14,059 bases of DNA from a bacterium (GTDB taxonomy: Bacteria; 4484-113; JALSIF01). This document shows positions 1,733-14,059 of this stretch, one piece after another. The stretch lies in contig JALSIF010000214.1 in the NCBI GenBank assembly GCA_026981635.1, positions 1 through 14,059 on the forward strand, in the 5' to 3' direction. The notes under the pieces are model-generated. The model had not been told where the DNA came from. It made no database searches and worked only from the letters and a program-made list of their open reading frames with translations. The first letter of the stretch is position 1; every line of letters begins with the position of its first letter. The position numbers were made by a program, and so were the translations under genes.

Positions 1733-1862
1733 GCCGCCCCTGACGTCAGATTCTAGGCCGGTTTTGACGGGGTAGGGGACTGGTAGAATTGACCCCAGGC
1801 CTATACTTCGCCGGAGCGTGAGAGCGGTCGGCGAGGATGCTTGTCAGGCTGAGGTGAGAGGT
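1733..1862. promoter_or_regulatory. Divergent intergenic region with candidate promoters
   Basis: This 130-base spacer between ispE (leftward) and the lipoprotein gene (rightward) must hold both promoters if each gene has its own. Leftward, TAGAAT at 1750-1755 (minus strand) is a 5/6 match to a sigma-70 -10 box, without a convincing -35. Rightward there are two candidates: TAGAAT at 1784-1789, with TTGACG at 1764-1769 but a short 14-base spacer, and TATACT at 1802-1807, with no good -35. The two TAGAAT hexamers form an inverted pair (ATTCTA...TAGAAT). A GAGGTG Shine-Dalgarno about 7 bases before the ATG at 1863 decides the lipoprotein start. All promoter calls are by eye and tentative. Confidence 0.35.
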
Positions 1863-4067
1863 ATGACGCGAGGAAAGGTTATCTCCCTAGTCGTCGGCTG
1901 GACTCTGCTGATGACCTTTGTTGCCGTCTATGGCGGCTGCACCAGCAACCAGAGTACCCGCCAGGCCAGCACCAATCCCAACTACGCCCAGCAGTACAAG
2001 GAACCCCAGCGCCAGAGCCGGGTGACCTCCAGCGGGGCGGGTGCTCAGCAGCAGCAGACCATCGCCCAGCTCCAGCCGGTGACCATCGTCCAGATGGCCA
2101 CCCTGGAGGGGAAGATCATCCCCGGCCAGGAGTACATCGTATACGCCGACATCTCCAACCCCAGCAACCGCGACCTCACCTTCCGCTGGGAGATCAAGGG
2201 AGGCGTCTTGCTTCCTCCGCCGGAGGAGAAGAAGGCCGAAGTGCTGAACATGCTGAGAAGCGGCGAGCTTGCCCCGCCTGAGCCCAACCAGGCCATCCCC
2301 AGCGAGGAGATGCTGGAGGAGGGGAAGGCCAAGCCCGCCGCCCAGGCTGCCTCCCCCGCTCCTAAGCCTCAGGGCAAGCAGGAGGTCTCCACGACCCCCG
2401 AGGGCGCCTCAGTGCAGGAGCAGAGGCGGGCAGAGTTTGCCAAGACCGAAGTATCCGAGGTGGAGAAGGCCGCCAAGCAGCGCCAGGCGATAAAGGAGGA
2501 GAAACCCAAGCAGGGAGAGGAGCAGGCTCCCCCTGCCAGGGCGGTGACCAAGGAGAAGCCCAGCCAGACTTCCTCCCTGATGGACCTCATCACCCCCAAG
2601 ACCCGTTTACTAGCCCAGGAGAGTGGTGAGGAAGCAGCGGAGGGTGAGGAAGAGGTACCCGCCGAGGAGGTGAAGGAGCCCGGTGCCCTGGAGGCTGAGC
2701 CGGTGGAGGAGGGGCCGGCAGGCGAGAGCAAGGCTGAGGAGAGCCCCGTGGCCGAGGAGGAGCCGGCGGCCAAGGTAGAGGAGAAGACCGAAGCCGAGGC
2801 TCCGGTCATCAAGCCGGGCAGGATCGACGCCTCCATAAGGCCCGAGCTTGAGGCGGTCTCCCCCACCCAGGAGGAGGGTGAGGCTCCCCTGGTCAGGCCG
2901 GAGCGGCTGGGCAAGACCCGCCTGCTCACCAAGGACCCGGTGGTGAGCTTCATCCCCGACCGGGTGGGCAAGGTTGTGATCACCCTCACCGTGCTCAACC
3001 TCAAGGGGGAGGAATTGACCGACCCCCGCCAGCTCATCATTGAGGCCACCGAGCCCGACCCGGCAGTGGTGCTGGACTTCAACCAGAACCAGGTGATGAC
3101 CGAGGGCAGCTACATCTACCTGGACCTCAAGGGGGAGCACCTCAAGGACTTCCGCCGTGGTCTCTTTAACATCCAGTTTGACAATGAGCGCCTCGCCTTC
3201 AAGGGAGCCGCGCTGGGCGACTTCTTTACCGACGAGTCCAAGGTGCAGTTCTTCTACGCCCAGCCCGACAAGGATGTGGGCGTGGTGACCCTGGGCATAA
3301 GTTGGAACGACCCGGCCAAGAACCTTTCCGGGAGTGGAATTCTTGCCACCCTTCGCTTCAAGGTGCTGCGCTCCATTGACGACCCCAGCACCCTAAACTT
3401 CACCGCCGACCGCGATCCGGTCAAGTTCTATGTGCTTGATTCCTCCGGGGAGAACATTCTTCCCGATCCCAACCTGACCTACCCGCCCTTCGCCAACAAC
3501 CGCATCGTGCCGGCGGGCGGTCAGCCTGCCGCCCCTGCTCGCCAGTCTCCCACACCTCCCGCCGCCGGAGGCAACATAACCATGCCCTCGGAGCCCCAGC
3601 CACCCCAGTCAGGGGAAAAGGAGAAGGGGAAGGGGGAGGTAAAGCAACCTCCCGTCACCCCGCCCAAGGCAACCGCCAAGCCTCCCGCCGCCACCCAGAC
3701 CAAGCCGGGGGCTGAACAGGAGGGGGGTGCGGGCGGCATGCCCACCGCTCCTCCTCCCCCTGGCTCCGGGGTGGCCAGCCGGCGCACCCAGCTCGGTGGC
3801 GAGAGCCCACCCCCTCCACCGTCGCCTAGCGTGAGCGCCGGTGCCCAGGAGTCTGGCTCCGGGGGCGGCGAGATGCCTACCTGGCGGGGCAAGCCCATTG
3901 ACCAGTACACCCCAGACGAGCTGCGCAGTGTCATCCAGAGCTGGGAGGATTTCAATGAGTACACTTCCATGTGGGCTGGTCATCCCATCCCTGACGAAAT
4001 TGCCCAGGTGCTGGAGGAACTGAGTGAGAAGTTCCCACCTCCGGGAGCGCCCCGGCTGGGGGGATAA
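1863..4067 (+). CDS. Probable lipoprotein with split Ig/PKD-like and cohesin-like domains
   Basis: A 734-residue exported protein of unknown specific function. The frame is open from 1818, but ATG 1863 is chosen because it follows GAGGTGAGAGGT and starts a signal peptide (MTRGKVIS, then a hydrophobic core) ending in VYGGC, a lipobox-like site with an unusual Tyr at -3; I see no other cysteine in the mature part. Domains, numbered from 1818: Gln/Ser-rich linker 42-88; first half of an Ig/PKD-like fold about 88-130 (PGQEYIVYADISNP...FRWEIKGG); a Glu/Pro/Ala-rich, presumably disordered stretch about 131-371; the second half about 375-412 (VSFIPDRVGKVVITLTVLN); a cohesin-like beta-sandwich about 415-565 (FNIQFDNERLAF, then SGSGILATLRFKV); a Pro/Gly/Thr-rich linker; and a distinct C-terminal tail 686-749. 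The amidohydrolase follows in the same frame after 45 bases. Cohesin-type folds also occur outside cellulosomes, and no dockerin is visible, so a surface or envelope scaffold role is only inference. Confidence 0.8.
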   Translation: MTRGKVISLVVGWTLLMTFVAVYGGCTSNQSTRQASTNPNYAQQYKEPQRQSRVTSSGAGAQQQQTIAQLQPVTIVQMATLEGKIIPGQEYIVYADISNPSNRDLTFRWEIKGGVLLPPPEEKKAEVLNMLRSGELAPPEPNQAIPSEEMLEEGKAKPAAQAASPAPKPQGKQEVSTTPEGASVQEQRRAEFAKTEVSEVEKAAKQRQAIKEEKPKQGEEQAPPARAVTKEKPSQTSSLMDLITPKTRLLAQESGEEAAEGEEEVPAEEVKEPGALEAEPVEEGPAGESKAEESPVAEEEPAAKVEEKTEAEAPVIKPGRIDASIRPELEAVSPTQEEGEAPLVRPERLGKTRLLTKDPVVSFIPDRVGKVVITLTVLNLKGEELTDPRQLIIEATEPDPAVVLDFNQNQVMTEGSYIYLDLKGEHLKDFRRGLFNIQFDNERLAFKGAALGDFFTDESKVQFFYAQPDKDVGVVTLGISWNDPAKNLSGSGILATLRFKVLRSIDDPSTLNFTADRDPVKFYVLDSSGENILPDPNLTYPPFANNRIVPAGGQPAAPARQSPTPPAAGGNITMPSEPQPPQSGEKEKGKGEVKQPPVTPPKATAKPPAATQTKPGAEQEGGAGGMPTAPPPPGSGVASRRTQLGGESPPPPPSPSVSAGAQESGSGGGEMPTWRGKPIDQYTPDELRSVIQSWEDFNEYTSMWAGHPIPDEIAQVLEELSEKFPPPGAPRLGG

Positions 4068-6404: not shown

Positions 6405-7367
6405 CTAGGGCATGAGGGGGTTGCGGTGTTTGGACTCGTAGTCCCGCTCCGGCTTGTATTTGCCGGTGGAGGTAACCGGCTGCTTGCTGGGCAGATACTG
6501 GCCCACCTGCTTCCAGCCGCTAAGCAGGGCGGGACTGAGCTGGTAGAGGACGGATGCCTTCTGCCAGCCCTTGAGCTCACGCCTGACGTAGTAGAAGGGG
6601 TCGCTTATCACGATCCAGAGCTTCACATCCCGGTCCCGCTGAATGAAACTCAGCATGTCGTCGATGGTCTGCTGGTCAACCTTGAACTTGAGGGTGATGG
6701 AGTAGGTCTTGGTAGTCAGCGACCAGACCGGCTCTCCCGCCTCCGGGGTGATGCCGCGCACGTAGGTGGCCGCCGGGTCCAGGGCATACTTGCCCCAGCG
6801 CAGCTTCTCCTGCGGGATGGGCTCGTAGTCAATCTCGGTCCGGTTCCATAGCTGGTTGAGCTTCTGCTGCTCGCCCCAGTGGCCGTAGGCCAGATAGACG
6901 TGGTTGGCGAGATCGTCCAGGAAGTCTTGGAAAACCCGGGTGTTCATCCGCGGGGCCATCACATTCACGTTGAGCACCACCTCACCCCACTTGGGAGTGA
7001 CCGGCTCGTAGTAGTCAATGATCTGCTGGATCTGATCGGGATCGGTGATGTTGTACTCGTCAATCTCCCACTGGATGCGCCGCTTGATGGAGTCGCGGGT
7101 GATGATGTTTACCCAGACCTGGTAGTTGGCCCGGTCCTTCTTAAGCTTCAGACGGAGGTCAAAGAACTTGGTGTAAAAGCGACGGAACGAGTCTCTGGCA
7201 CGGCTGGGGTCGGCCGCCCGAAAGTCTGCCGGGGTGAGGCTTCCGTCGCCCATCTCCAGGCCATAGCCGGTGGACTTGGTGGCCTGTCCACTCTCCTGCT
7301 GGGCCAGTGCCGCCCCTGCAAAGACCAGAAGAGCCACCGCTGTGAGAAGCACGGTTCTAAGTCCCAT
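6405..7367 (-). CDS. Secreted protein of unknown family
   Basis: I do not recognise this protein. The frame is open from 7547, but ATG 7367 is chosen: it has a strong upstream GGAGAGGAAGG and opens a clear signal peptide (MGLR, a hydrophobic core, then the ALA cleavage site at 20-22 followed by QQ). This gives a 320-residue precursor and about 298 mature residues. The mature part has no cysteine, no further membrane segment and no repeat. It is rich in aromatic and charged residues (WVNIITRDSIKRR, YYEPVTPKWGEVVLNVNV, SDPFYYVRRELKGWQK), which suggests a folded periplasmic or extracellular domain rather than a linker. It follows nuoM on the same strand after 148 bases and is closed by the terminator at 6341-6380, so it is probably at least partly co-transcribed with the nuo genes. 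Whether it has a role with complex I is unknown. Confidence 0.8.
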   Translation of the reverse strand: MGLRTVLLTAVALLVFAGAALAQQESGQATKSTGYGLEMGDGSLTPADFRAADPSRARDSFRRFYTKFFDLRLKLKKDRANYQVWVNIITRDSIKRRIQWEIDEYNITDPDQIQQIIDYYEPVTPKWGEVVLNVNVMAPRMNTRVFQDFLDDLANHVYLAYGHWGEQQKLNQLWNRTEIDYEPIPQEKLRWGKYALDPAATYVRGITPEAGEPVWSLTTKTYSITLKFKVDQQTIDDMLSFIQRDRDVKLWIVISDPFYYVRRELKGWQKASVLYQLSPALLSGWKQVGQYLPSKQPVTSTGKYKPERDYESKHRNPLMP

Positions 7368-7399
7368 AACCTTCCTCTCCTTCCCAGACTGTTTCCGGG

Positions 7400-7416
7400 C
7401 TCGCCCCAAGGGCGAG
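7400..7416 (-). other. Small hairpin in leader of secreted-protein gene
   Basis: CTCGCCC and GGGCGAG form a perfect 7-bp stem with a 3-base loop, ending 33 bases before the ATG at 7367. No T-run follows, so it is unlikely to be a terminator. It could stabilise or process the mRNA between nuoM and the secreted-protein gene. The rest of the 148-base spacer (7368-7515) shows only a possible TAGAAC -10-like hexamer and the Shine-Dalgarno. Confidence 0.35.
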
Positions 7417-7515
7417 TGAAGTCTACCACAAGGAGTTCTATTAGACCCCTCCCTGGTGGATTGGTTCCCGTCCCCAAGCCGCTTCTCGCCCTCTGCCGGG
7501 GGAGATAAGGAGCGG

Positions 7516-9240
7516 CTAGCCGCCAAACTTGGCGATGTTTTCCGCAATCTCCCCCATCAGGGTAAGGGTATTTACTGGAAAGCCCACAAACAGGTTGAAG
7601 ATGGGGGCAGGATAGAGCCCATAGCCCACCGTCATGATGATGAGGGGAAGGAAGGCGGCAAATTCGGGCCAGCTAAGATCCGCCACCTCCCTGGTGCGCT
7701 CGGTAAGCTTTCCCCAAAGCACCCCCAGAAGCAGCCTCAGCACGTAGGCGGCAGAAAAGACCACCCCCAGGGCGGCAAGCACCCCGAGGAGGATATAGAG
7801 CCCCTTGTCGGAGAGGCCGGCCATGGTGACCCGGTCCGACCACTGGGCGTGGTAGCCGAAGGTGCCGATTACCACCGGAAACTCGCCCCAGAAGGCGATC
7901 AGCCCCGGCACCCCCACCGCAGCAAATCCAGCCACGATGAGGCTCAGGGCCAGGCGGGGGGTCTTGGTGAGCAGGCCACCCAGCTCATGGATGTCGCGGG
8001 TACCGGTACGCTGCTCAATGATCCCCACCAGCCAGAAGAGGCTGGCCGCAATGATCCCGTGGGCAAACATCATGTAGATTGCCCCCCTAAACCCGACCAC
8101 GTTGAGGCTGGCGATGCCCAAGGTGATGAATCCCATCTGGGCCAGGGAGCTGTAGGCGACGATCCGCTTGATGTCGGTCTGGGCAAAGGCTACCAGCGCC
8201 CCGTAGATGATCATCACCACCCCCACTACCCCCAGGTAGGGAGCCACCTTGTCCATCTGGTCGGGGAAGAGGGGGACCGCCACCCTGAGCAGTCCATAGG
8301 CCCCGGTCTTGAGGAGCACCGCCGCCAGCACCATGGACATGGGGGCGGGCGCCTCGGTGTGGGCGTCGGGCATCCAGGTATGGAAGGGAAAGATGGGGAT
8401 CTTTACCCCGAAGGCAAATAGGTAGGCCAGAAACATGGCCAGCCTGACGCTGTCGCGAAGCAGGATGGTGGGGTTGTTGGCCGGGTCGGCGTTGAGGAAC
8501 CGAAGGATGTGGGTCTGGTAGCCGGTGGCCGCTGCCCCCAGGTTCACCTCCAGGATGCCGATGATGATGGGAAAGAGCATGAAGATGGAGGCAAACACCG
8601 TGTAGATGAAGAACTTGAGCCCCGCCGGCCGGGCCCCCTTGCCCCCCCAGTAGGTGATGAGCAGGTACATGGGGATGAGCATCAGCTCCCAGAAGACATA
8701 AAGCAGGATCAGGTCCAGGGCGAAGAAGACCCCATAGACCGCCCCCTGCAGGATAAGGAAGAGCATGAAGTAGCGCTTGAGGTCCTTCTTGATCAGTTGC
8801 AGGCTGGCCAGGGTGGCGAGGGTAAAGACGATGGCCGAAAGCACCACCAGCACCATGGAGAGCCCGTCTACTCCCAGGCTGTAGGAGATGAAGAAGGAGG
8901 CGTCGCGGGGGATCCAGGTGAAGATCACCCGCGGGTTCTCCAAAAGCCCATACTCGGCCGAAAAGCCCCTCAGCCGGTAGTCGATCAGGCTGATTCCCGA
9001 CTGGGCGAGGAAGCTGGCGATGCGGGGGCTGATCATGCCGGCGATGGGTATCCAGGGAAGCAGGGTGAAGATGAGGGCCACCAGCCCCACCGCCCGCCGC
9101 TCCCGGGCGTCCCCCCGCTTCCAGGGCATAAGCCCCACCACCAGCATCCCGATCATGGGAAGGAAAATGATCTGGTTGAGGGGGCTAAGTATGAAGGCCC
9201 GAAGCTGGTTGAGCAGGGTTTCGCCCTGGAATGCCTCCAT
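7516..9240 (-). CDS. nuoM: NADH-quinone oxidoreductase subunit M (antiporter-like)
   Basis: Integral membrane, Mrp-antiporter-like proton-pumping subunit of complex I. 574 residues, longer than the usual 480-530. The extra length is mainly near the N terminus, around residues 70-120 before the LGVDGLS segment. Key charged residues are in canonical settings: Glu185 (YVFWELMLIPMY), Lys280 (FAFGVKIPIFPFHTW), Lys311 (LLKTGAYGLLR), the TDIKRIVAYSSLAQMG broken-helix region at 355-370 and Glu453 (AFWGEFPVV). About 14 membrane segments are expected. The ATG directly follows the nuoL TAG with no spacer; its ribosome binding site (GGAGG) lies inside the nuoL end, so translation is probably coupled. Of the three antiporter-like subunits seen or expected, this looks the most conventional. 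No nuoN follows. Confidence 0.96.
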   Translation of the reverse strand: MEAFQGETLLNQLRAFILSPLNQIIFLPMIGMLVVGLMPWKRGDARERRAVGLVALIFTLLPWIPIAGMISPRIASFLAQSGISLIDYRLRGFSAEYGLLENPRVIFTWIPRDASFFISYSLGVDGLSMVLVVLSAIVFTLATLASLQLIKKDLKRYFMLFLILQGAVYGVFFALDLILLYVFWELMLIPMYLLITYWGGKGARPAGLKFFIYTVFASIFMLFPIIIGILEVNLGAAATGYQTHILRFLNADPANNPTILLRDSVRLAMFLAYLFAFGVKIPIFPFHTWMPDAHTEAPAPMSMVLAAVLLKTGAYGLLRVAVPLFPDQMDKVAPYLGVVGVVMIIYGALVAFAQTDIKRIVAYSSLAQMGFITLGIASLNVVGFRGAIYMMFAHGIIAASLFWLVGIIEQRTGTRDIHELGGLLTKTPRLALSLIVAGFAAVGVPGLIAFWGEFPVVIGTFGYHAQWSDRVTMAGLSDKGLYILLGVLAALGVVFSAAYVLRLLLGVLWGKLTERTREVADLSWPEFAAFLPLIIMTVGYGLYPAPIFNLFVGFPVNTLTLMGEIAENIAKFGG

Positions 9241-11301: not shown

Positions 11302-11685
11302 TCAGTCGTGAAGCTCCCGGTAGCTTTCTGGTCGCGGTGAGGCCTTGAGCCGGTAGTAGCTGATGGCGATGGCCAGCCCCACCGCCACCTCAGCCGCCGC
11401 CACGATGGTGATGAAGATCATGAACATCTGCCCGATGGGCGACTGAACCTGCTCCAGCGATGAAAAGACCACCCGGGTGATGGTGATGCCGTGGGCGTTG
11501 CCGAAGGTGAGAAAGAGCAGGTTGTCGGCCGCAAGCATAAGCTCAAGCCCCATCAGCACCACCACGATGTTTCGCCGCGTGATCACGGTAAGAAAGCCGA
11601 TTACAAACAGGAGCACCGCCAGGATGTAGTAGTGCTGGTAGCTTACGATCAGGGGAGCCTGCGGGTTGAAGTTCTCCAGTGCCAC
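11302..11685 (-). CDS. nuoK: NADH-quinone oxidoreductase subunit K
   Basis: Small three-helix membrane subunit of complex I, homologous to MrpC. 127 residues against about 100 normally: there are about 15 extra N-terminal residues before the YQHYYILAVLLFVIG helix, an approximately 20-residue insert between helices 2 and 3 (about 62-85) and a polar C-terminal tail. The membrane glutamates of the proton path are present: Glu48 (VLMGLELML) and Glu99 (VAAAEVAVGLAI). The usual asparagine-rich ELMLNAVNL reads ELMLAADNL. The start is GTG 11685, placed 3 bases after the nuoJ stop, with AAGGAG inside the nuoJ end as Shine-Dalgarno. Confidence 0.94.
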   Translation of the reverse strand: MALENFNPQAPLIVSYQHYYILAVLLFVIGFLTVITRRNIVVVLMGLELMLAADNLLFLTFGNAHGITITRVVFSSLEQVQSPIGQMFMIFITIVAAAEVAVGLAIAISYYRLKASPRPESYRELHD

Positions 11686-11688
11686 CTT

Positions 11689-12207
11689 CTACCACTCCTT
11701 TTTGGCGATGATGGCCGCCCCTACCAGGGCAACCAGAAGGATTACCGAGGCGATCTCAAAGGGCAGGGTGTAGGTGGCAAACAGGGACCAGCCGATCAGC
11801 TTGGGGTTGGGGATGAGGCTGAACTGGCGCTCGGTCCTGAACATGAAGGACCAGCCGGCAAAGCCGTAGACCAGGAAGAAGACCACCCCCACCGCCACCG
11901 CCGGCCACAGCCAGCGGTTGAAGCGGTGCTCGTGGACCCCGACGTAGGTGCGGGTCATGAAGATGCCGAAGACCAAAAGCATGGTGATGCCGCCCACAAA
12001 GACGAAAAACTGCACCGCCGCCATGAATTCGGCATTGAGAAGCAGAAACAGGCCACCCAGGGAGGTGAGGGAGACGATGAGGGAGAGGGCGCAGTGGAAG
12101 ACATTTCTCAGCAGCAGGACCCCTAGCCCTGAGGCCACCGCGATGATGGCGAAGAAGTAGAAGAAGAAGTGGGGGGCGTAGTAGGAGAGAAGGCCGTAGT
12201 CAATCAT
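11689..12207 (-). CDS. nuoJ: NADH-quinone oxidoreductase subunit J
   Basis: Membrane subunit of complex I, 172 residues with five expected helices, normal for the family. The signature region is recognisable: NVFHCALSLIVSLTSLGG, then LLNAEFMAAVQFFVFVGG and an LVFGIFM helix. The canonical VYVGAIMVLFLFVVM, which holds the pi-bulge tyrosine, reads VFVGGITMLLVFGIFM, so that tyrosine is Phe. The C-terminal helix (IASVILLVALVGAAIIAKKE) is conventional. ATG 12207 overlaps the stop of the upstream nuoI-like gene as ATGA, implying coupled translation. Confidence 0.95.
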   Translation of the reverse strand: MIDYGLLSYYAPHFFFYFFAIIAVASGLGVLLLRNVFHCALSLIVSLTSLGGLFLLLNAEFMAAVQFFVFVGGITMLLVFGIFMTRTYVGVHEHRFNRWLWPAVAVGVVFFLVYGFAGWSFMFRTERQFSLIPNPKLIGWSLFATYTLPFEIASVILLVALVGAAIIAKKEW

Positions 12208-13268
12208 GCCTCGCCCACCTCCCCGCTAGCCGCCTCGCCCTGCTCCGCCCTAGCAAGCTCAAGCAGGTCAACCACCAGCTCCTCCCTGCCACGGGTGAGA
12301 AGCCTTCGTCGGGGAACAAACTCAAGCACCCCGTGGCGGTCGGCCTCCACGCAGAGCCCGCAGAAGTAGCAGCGGGAGACGTCATAGAGCACCCTCACCG
12401 GCCGCCCTCCCTCCTCCTCAACCCGGATGAGCCCGTCAGGACAGGCCGCCGCGGCAGCTTTCAGCGCCTCTGCCGGTGCTTCAAGCTGCCCCAGCTTGCC
12501 CAGGTCTAGCCTGAGCATCCCCCGGCTTTGGCGGGGCACCGGCACTGGTTGACTGGGATGGCGATAGGTGGCGGGGGGCTGAAACAGGGCTATGTCAAGG
12601 GTGGTGAGCATGGAGGTTAGGATGGAGACCCCGTTTTCCTGCATCAGCCTCAGGGCGTGGATGATGCCCCGGTAGGTTGCCCGGATGGCGGGCCAGAAGG
12701 CCGAGGCCACCACCAGCCAGAAGATCAGCCACAGCCCATACCAGACCACCTCAAAGGTGTATGGGAAGTAGATCACCTGCCCCCAGGCGGTCCTGAAGCC
12801 GGTGAACTTCTTGAAGTCCAGGATGGCCCGCTGCACCCGGTTTAGCGGGTCAAGGAAGACAAACAGGAAGAAGAGCTGGAAGCCGAAGTAGAGCAGGGTC
12901 CCCCACAGGCGGCCGTCCCTGTACCTCAGCGCCCACTGGGAGTATCCGGTGACGAACTTGGCCAGCCGCCACATCCAGTAGAGCAGGATGGCCAGGAAAT
13001 AGACCGCCACCGCCGCCATGAGGATGACGAAGAAGGTCTTGGTGCCGCCGGCGGGCATCTCCCGCACGGTGGAGACGAACCCCTGATAGCGGGTCCAGAT
13101 GAGCAGGACGAAGAAGGGGATGATGGCCCCCCAGGTGAGGTAGGTGAGCCAGAGGGGGATCAGGCGCTCCACCCCATAGACCGTCTGGTCGGCGAAGTGG
13201 AAGGTGCGCTCTCCCGTCTTCAGCCACTCCTCCCGGACCAGCTCCACCTCGCGCTCCCTCTGGCTCAT
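12204..13268 (-). CDS. NuoI-like protein: four-helix membrane domain plus single-cluster ferredoxin
   Basis: Occupies the nuoI slot between nuoH and nuoJ, joined to both by ATGA overlaps. 354 residues, against about 130-180 for normal NuoI. Residues 1-195 are a novel N-terminal part with four predicted membrane segments (about 37-60, 79-104, 120-140 and 172-193) and no histidines in them, so it is not a cytochrome b. From about 200 the sequence follows NuoI: an amphipathic segment, then a linker (LFQPPATYRHPSQPVPVPR) and RG at 249-250. In normal NuoI two CxxCxxCxxxCP motifs bind two [4Fe-4S] clusters. Here motif 1 keeps only its fourth cysteine (Cys276, AAAAACPDG), and motif 2 keeps its first three (Cys300, Cys303, Cys306; RCYFCGLCVEAD) with Asp310 in place of the fourth. 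That is precisely the ligand set of one cluster (N6b by Thermus numbering). The frame is intact, so this is not a frameshift. The role is probably electron transfer to the quinone site, with an altered entry point. Confidence 0.85.
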   Translation of the reverse strand: MSQREREVELVREEWLKTGERTFHFADQTVYGVERLIPLWLTYLTWGAIIPFFVLLIWTRYQGFVSTVREMPAGGTKTFFVILMAAVAVYFLAILLYWMWRLAKFVTGYSQWALRYRDGRLWGTLLYFGFQLFFLFVFLDPLNRVQRAILDFKKFTGFRTAWGQVIYFPYTFEVVWYGLWLIFWLVVASAFWPAIRATYRGIIHALRLMQENGVSILTSMLTTLDIALFQPPATYRHPSQPVPVPRQSRGMLRLDLGKLGQLEAPAEALKAAAAACPDGLIRVEEEGGRPVRVLYDVSRCYFCGLCVEADRHGVLEFVPRRRLLTRGREELVVDLLELARAEQGEAASGEVGEA

Positions 13269-14059
13269 GTCTGGGGCGCCTCCTTCCTCCGCACAGCAAG
13301 CTCACGGTAGCGCCTGCGCCTTGCCGCCCGCTTCCTCATCACCCGATAGACAAGGACGGCGAAAAAGCCCGCCATGATGAAAAAGCCGATCCAGTAGAGG
13401 GTGTGGAAGGTTAGCTCGGCAAAGTTATAAAAGTCGCTTGCCCGGCGAAGCTCGTCGGTGACCAGTTCGGGCCGGAAGAGCTGGTAGGCCCCCCAGGGGG
13501 TGGGGACCGGCACCTGGTCCTTCAGGTTGGCGATGGGGTTTATCACCTCCATGTTGCCCATGTACCAGGGGTGGCGATAGGCCACCGCCAGCCCCACCAG
13601 GATCAGGTTGTAGAGGGAGAGGGGGAGAAGAAACTTCCACGAATAGTCCATCAGCTGGTCAACCCTGAAGCGTGGAAGGCTCCCCCGCAGCCAGAAGAAG
13701 AGCATGGTGACAAGGAGCAGTTTCAGCATGAACCAGAAGGTGGTGGAGACGATCATCATGCTCTCGGGCAGAGCCAGCCGCTCAATCCCGGGGATGTGGC
13801 GGAAGGGGCTTAGCCAGCCGCCGAGGAAGGAGATCACAAACAGGGCGGAAAAGATCAGGATCTGGGCATACTCGGCAAGGTAGAAGAGGGCAAAGCGTAT
13901 CCCCGAGTACTCGGTGTGGTAGCCTGCCGCAAGCTCAGATTCGGCCTGGGGCAGGTCAAAGGGGTGGCGCGAGTCCTCTGCCAGGATGGCACAGAAGAAG
14001 ACGAAGGCACCAAAGAACTGGGGCACCAGAAACCAGATGCGCTGCTGGGCCTCAACGAT
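13265..14059 (-). CDS. nuoH: NADH-quinone oxidoreductase subunit H, 5' end outside window
   Basis: Complex I membrane subunit that forms most of the quinone-binding tunnel. 264 C-terminal residues are visible. The frame runs open to the right edge (IVEAQQRIWFLVPQFF), and a GTG at 14026 is internal. Conserved elements: the loop AEDSRHPFDLPQAESEL AAGYHTEYSG, which lines the quinone site, then FALFYLAEYAQ, and the LRGSLPRFRVDQLMDYSWKF loop leading into LPLSL. Normal NuoH ends shortly after the following helix. This one continues for about 100 residues (13265-13573): a roughly 55-residue polar loop (HPWYMGNMEVINP...TPWGAYQLF), an additional predicted membrane helix (YWIGFFIMAGFFAVLVY) and a very basic tail. 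Its stop overlaps the ATG of the nuoI-like gene. Confidence 0.96.
   Translation of the reverse strand: MVEAQQRIWFLVPQFFGAFVFFCAILAEDSRHPFDLPQAESELAAGYHTEYSGIRFALFYLAEYAQILIFSALFVISFLGGWLSPFRHIPGIERLALPESMMIVSTTFWFMLKLLLVTMLFFWLRGSLPRFRVDQLMDYSWKFLLPLSLYNLILVGLAVAYRHPWYMGNMEVINPIANLKDQVPVPTPWGAYQLFRPELVTDELRRASDFYNFAELTFHTLYWIGFFIMAGFFAVLVYRVMRKRAARRRRYRELAVRRKEAPQT

Follow-up and report, generated by a model that had tools for sequence, protein, structure and literature searches.

Complex I-like enzymes lacking NuoE, NuoF and NuoG have been described in Desulfitobacterium hafniense; these 11-subunit complexes contain the subunits A-D and H-N, with NuoI at the electron-entry side (PMC11238625). 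In NuoI, two clusters are listed, N6a and N6b (PMC10212512). Here we analysed a variant nuoI gene located in a window of 14,059 nucleotides (the whole stretch of DNA under study, positions 1 to 14,059 of contig JALSIF010000214.1, assembly GCA_026981635.1) from a bacterium of a little-known phylum (GTDB lineage Bacteria; 4484-113; JALSIF01). Its complex has the subunit composition of the D. hafniense type, but its NuoI is fused to four membrane helices, its nuoN is unlinked from the operon and N6a is missing in the window. Compared with the canonical complex I of E. coli and Thermus, NuoI, NuoH, NuoJ, NuoK, NuoL and NuoM are clear homologues and the membrane-arm residues are kept, whereas the operon type has no module for reduced nicotinamide adenine dinucleotide (NADH) and one of the two NuoI clusters is lost in the window.

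Two further systems are close to this case. The likeness to the Mrp cation/proton antiporters lies in antiporter-like subunits with kept Lys and Glu residues, and in a related family of the window's complex for which no redox site was found; however, the complex I set including NuoB, NuoC, NuoD, NuoH and NuoI is retained and no copy of Mrp turned up in the class. In other organisms, the N7 cluster of NuoG, which is off-path, is known to have been lost, its ligand cysteines being replaced, by Asp and Ser in sheep (PMC8357420). There as here, a single cluster of complex I has had its ligand cysteines substituted, but N7 lies off the main path of electrons whereas N6a, N6b and N2 are on it.

Identity of the variant NuoI and its cluster ligands

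Among the PDB sequences, the C-terminal part of the protein gave E. coli NuoI as the top match (E 3.6e-7), and other solved NuoI proteins also matched. The model of residues 205-354, built from a ten-row alignment, exhibited a mean predicted local distance difference test (pLDDT) score of 77, with about 91 in the core. With this model, the top Foldseek matches were NuoI, and the listed PDB matches were all NuoI except one homologous formate hydrogenlyase subunit. The full-length AlphaFold2 model was poor (pLDDT 49) and was not taken into the fold search. The gene occupies the slot between nuoH and nuoJ of a nuo operon. By sequence, predicted fold and operon position it is NuoI, and does not belong to an unrelated family. 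As the initial annotation, made from the letters of the window, had proposed, the gene has the features of a working one: the frame is open, ATGA overlaps are present with both nuoH (13265-13268) and nuoJ (12204-12207), and the order nuoH-I-J-K-L-M is kept. The four added membrane helices of that annotation were also recovered, as four hydrophobic segments ahead of the ferredoxin domain (residues 39-57, 78-96, 121-139 and 174-192).

Judged by its motifs, the protein is a nonstandard NuoI variant, as its two CxxCxxCxxxC motif regions supply a complete ligand set for N6b but not for N6a. Only four cysteine residues, C276, C300, C303 and C306, occur in the whole 354 amino acids (aa). In two-cluster ferredoxins the ligation of the clusters is crossed between the motifs, and we take the N6a ligands in NuoI to be the first three cysteines of motif 1 together with the fourth of motif 2. 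Since NuoI homology puts this set on N6a, the kept set is that of N6b; the four kept cysteines form one set and the four lost cysteines the other, so that the ligands of exactly one complete cluster are lost, as had been claimed. It had also been concluded that electrons could not follow the N5-N6a-N6b route. The ligand sets agree with the loss of N6a and the retention of N6b, but the standard route is inapplicable to the window complex, because its operon type lacks nuoE, nuoF and nuoG.

A random loss of four of the eight cysteines would leave one complete set with a probability of 2/70 (0.029). Among the other columns invariant in five relatives with all eight cysteines (8-Cys relatives), the window keeps 17 of 48 (35%), compared with 4/4 for the N6b cysteines and 0/4 for the N6a cysteines, and at the 17/48 rate the chance of keeping all four N6b cysteines is about 0.016. 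Judging from this alignment, an accidental retention of the N6b cysteines is unlikely, and a cluster is probably still bound at N6b in the window.

Searched with a profile of the N-terminal domain, nine of the ten class genomes gave matches, whereas about 375 other genomes gave none; in the tenth class genome, a fragmentary one, the variant contig ends in nuoJ. Pfam and PDB searches with the membrane domain found no relative, and the domain is described here as class-specific. Five relatives with a membrane-fused NuoI retain all eight cysteines. Because nine of the ten class genomes carry the domain, among them these five with all eight cysteines, the four-helix anchor is independent of the cluster loss.

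The second complex I of the class and the relatives of the window

In the class relatives, a second complex operon is arranged A-B-C-D-H-I-J-K-L-M, without nuoE, nuoF and nuoG and with nuoN unlinked, while the NADH-module genes are present for the canonical complex of the class. The genomes G001 and G007 have a single NuoF each, located in the canonical operon. Exactly six Proton_antipo_M proteins were counted per class genome with full counts, corresponding to two NuoL/M/N sets; since all six fit these two sets, no Mrp antiporter is present in those genomes. The window set itself is nuoH-M and not the MrpA-G gene set. The window complex is the second, NADH-module-less, 11-subunit (A-D, H-N) complex I characteristic of the class.

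In a tree of NuoH, NuoI, NuoK, NuoL and NuoM, the window operon joined the family formed by G001, G005 and G007 with a support of 100/100. NuoL alone and NuoI alone each parted the window from the 8-Cys group, and the alignment showed a hairpin deletion of 6 residues in the window NuoI that is common to these three independently assembled relatives. On the strength of these sequence comparisons, the G001/G005/G007 family is likely to comprise the closest relatives of the window.

In the variant operons of this family, NuoI has none of the eight cysteines. NuoB exhibits GLDYATLE instead of GLACCAIE, a GAGAISG-type instead of a GSCAISG-type motif and VPGDPPRP instead of a PGCPPRP-type motif, with all four N2 ligands lost. 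NuoD reads GPQHPSLxxP instead of GPQHPSTHGV and EW instead of DY, the altered positions being the quinone-site His and Tyr, and NuoH has an insertion with extra hydrophobic segments within the conserved quinone-side loop. A Glu-to-Gln change of the same kind as in this family was found in the window NuoH, in the loop near the quinone chamber. The NuoB and NuoD redox sites are present in G002, G003, G004 and G009 and absent in G001, G005 and G007; in their canonical complex, G001 and G007 have a normal NuoB. In the variant complex of the related family, NuoL, NuoM, NuoN and NuoK retain their key Glu and Lys residues. As far as the NuoI and NuoB sequences show, G001, G005 and G007 alone lack electron-cofactor ligands, the window differing by its kept N6b set. 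No CxxCH heme motifs were listed in the window or in the G001, G005 and G007 operons.

Between G007 and G008, the ratio of nonsynonymous to synonymous substitution rates (dN/dS) was about 0.4 for NuoL and NuoK of the variant complex and about 0.1 for the canonical NuoB. By these ratios the variant complex is under constraint (dN below dS), less tight than that on the canonical NuoB. No N2-less NuoB was found outside the class: among 24 GTDB hits there were 3 such cases, and among the best 30 loci (385 genomes) likewise 3, all from G001, G005 and G007, in a first scan with two short patterns and a second one limited to best hits, so that distant N2-less cases may have been passed over.

The operons of the family contain additional genes. 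In G001 (L026:8140-8950), a nucleotidyltransferase-like and a HEPN-like open reading frame (ORF), resembling by eye an MNT-HEPN pair, lie between the variant nuoH and nuoI. In G007 (L045:4400-9500), about 5 kb of other ORFs separate the variant nuoB from nuoC. In G005 (L046:10201-11300), nuoH and nuoI are separated by two added ORFs for small membrane proteins, which might be extra subunits; one of them matched DsbB weakly, below the cut-off. No clear family emerged for the added ORFs of this kind in the related operons.

The window operon and the canonical NuoI of the same genome

NuoI had been described as replaced in this organism. This is not the case, as contig C96 of the window genome carries a separate operon, nuoG (end), H, I, J, K, L, whose NuoI is a normal one with all eight cysteines. 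The nuoN of the variant type is located on contig C79. With PF01058, PF00346 and PF01512 and with the G001 NuoB as query, nuoB, nuoD and nuoF were not found in the window genome; of the NADH-module genes, the end of nuoG is seen and nuoF is not. This absence is put down to gaps of the assembly, because contig C96 of the canonical operon also starts inside the end of nuoG. The features of the window are collected in Table 1.

Table 1 Coordinates of the variant nuoI, its domains and ligand positions, and the neighbouring nuo genes in the window.
Feature	Position	Strand	Evidence
Variant nuoI, 354 aa; membrane domain of four helices joined to one-cluster ferredoxin domain	12204..13268	-	sequence, predicted fold
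N-terminal membrane domain, residues 1-211; class-specific, no Pfam/PDB match	12636..13268	-	
NuoI-type ferredoxin domain, residues 213-320	12309..12632	-	alignment, PDB match, model
Lost N6a ligands, motif 1 Cys1-3: A266 (GCA), L269 (CTG), A272 (GCC)	12453..12473	-	alignment to NuoI relatives
C276, motif 1 Cys4, kept N6b ligand	12441..12443	-	alignment
C300, C303, C306, motif 2 Cys1-3, kept N6b ligands	12351..12371	-	alignment
D310 (GAC) at the motif 2 Cys4 position, lost fourth N6a ligand	12339..12341	-	alignment
nuoH, 3' part; gene cut by contig end at 14059; loop EDSRHPFDLPQAESEL vs ETNRxPFDxxEAESEx in 8-Cys relatives	13265..14059	-	
nuoJ	11689..12207	-	
nuoK; both membrane glutamates kept	11302..11685	-	
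nuoL; retains key Glu and Lys residues	9241..11298	-	
nuoM; key Glu and Lys residues kept	7516..9240	-	

We found also that residue 70 of NuoJ (11998-12000, minus strand) is Phe, whereas it is a Tyr that precedes the glycine pair in those class relatives that were read (FVFVGGITML compared with IIYIGGIMVL). Downstream of nuoM, an ORF of 380 aa (6405-7547, minus strand) showed no Pfam family above the cut-off, and a proline- and glutamate-rich protein of 749 aa (1818-4067, plus strand) gave a weak cohesin-domain match.

Possible states of the variant complex

We consider it rather probable that the window gene is the NuoI of the class-typical second complex I in a lineage whose electron chain is being dismantled, with the window as an intermediate and the ion-translocating arm kept. 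The loss would have been stepwise in one lineage, from eight cysteines in the other families to four in the window, then to none in the related family together with the loss of N2 and of the quinone site, the ion path being retained at every stage. In the window, N6b would take electrons straight from a donor, or would be the last relay left, and the complex would act more and more as an ion translocator. In the related family, the process would have ended in a state without redox chemistry, for instance an Mrp-like cation/proton antiporter. The stronger statement, that in this lineage a complete complex I became an ion translocator free of redox chemistry (one family, three readable genomes) with the window as a halfway stage having N6b only, has in our estimate slightly less than an even chance. 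Several points weigh against such a dismantling. Without NuoL and NuoI, a tree of NuoH, NuoK and NuoM does not fix the place of the window, and its branch is very long (1.6-2.3 changes per site), so that long-branch effects are possible. With nuoB and nuoD missing from the assembly, N2 and the quinone site are unreadable in the window genome, and what points to redox-free ion transport in the related family is its residues. Finally, N6b is kept despite fast evolution, which argues for some remaining electron transfer.

The retention of all four N6b ligands against 35% of the other invariant positions would also suit a fully working one-cluster enzyme, in which a ferredoxin-like or membrane-bound donor passes electrons to N6b, then N2 and quinone, N6a being dispensable without the NADH module. 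The operon type without nuoE, nuoF and nuoG fits such an enzyme, soluble donors such as ferredoxin having been proposed for 11-subunit complexes (PMC11238625). We regard it as unlikely, yet worth keeping in view: N6a is retained in the five class relatives whose operon is likewise NuoEFG-less, the NuoH loop of the window has changed residues close to the quinone chamber, and the related family is without any of the centres. That the complex is already redox-dead, its four cysteines being a relic or ligands of a structural metal, would agree with the grouping of the window with the redox-less family, with its very long branch and with the Glu-to-Gln change in the NuoH loop, but one complete ligand set was exactly retained along that branch, and we hold this improbable. 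Fast evolution and a fragmented assembly (317 contigs, 85% complete) could suggest a decaying gene or an assembly artefact. This has a very slight chance of being correct, as the frames are open with ATGA overlaps across nuoH, nuoI and nuoJ, nuoJ-K-L-M are intact and the ion-path residues are kept. A sequencing error, in particular, is very unlikely because four separate codons are substituted in an open frame and the hairpin deletion recurs in three independent genomes. Dismantling of the electron chain in the lineage is thus the explanation that we favour.

In the literature searched, which covered few subscription journals and does not prove novelty, we found no description of a NuoI without N6a, a NuoB without N2 or a fused NuoI, and in a large survey of complex I the word cysteine is absent. 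It has long been asked how protons far away in the membrane arm are moved by electron transfer in the peripheral arm. The natural series from eight to four to zero cysteines, with the membrane arm kept, provides enzymes whose two halves evolution may have uncoupled, and makes a direct comparison possible. The case also bears on a possible functional interconversion of complex I and Mrp antiporters.
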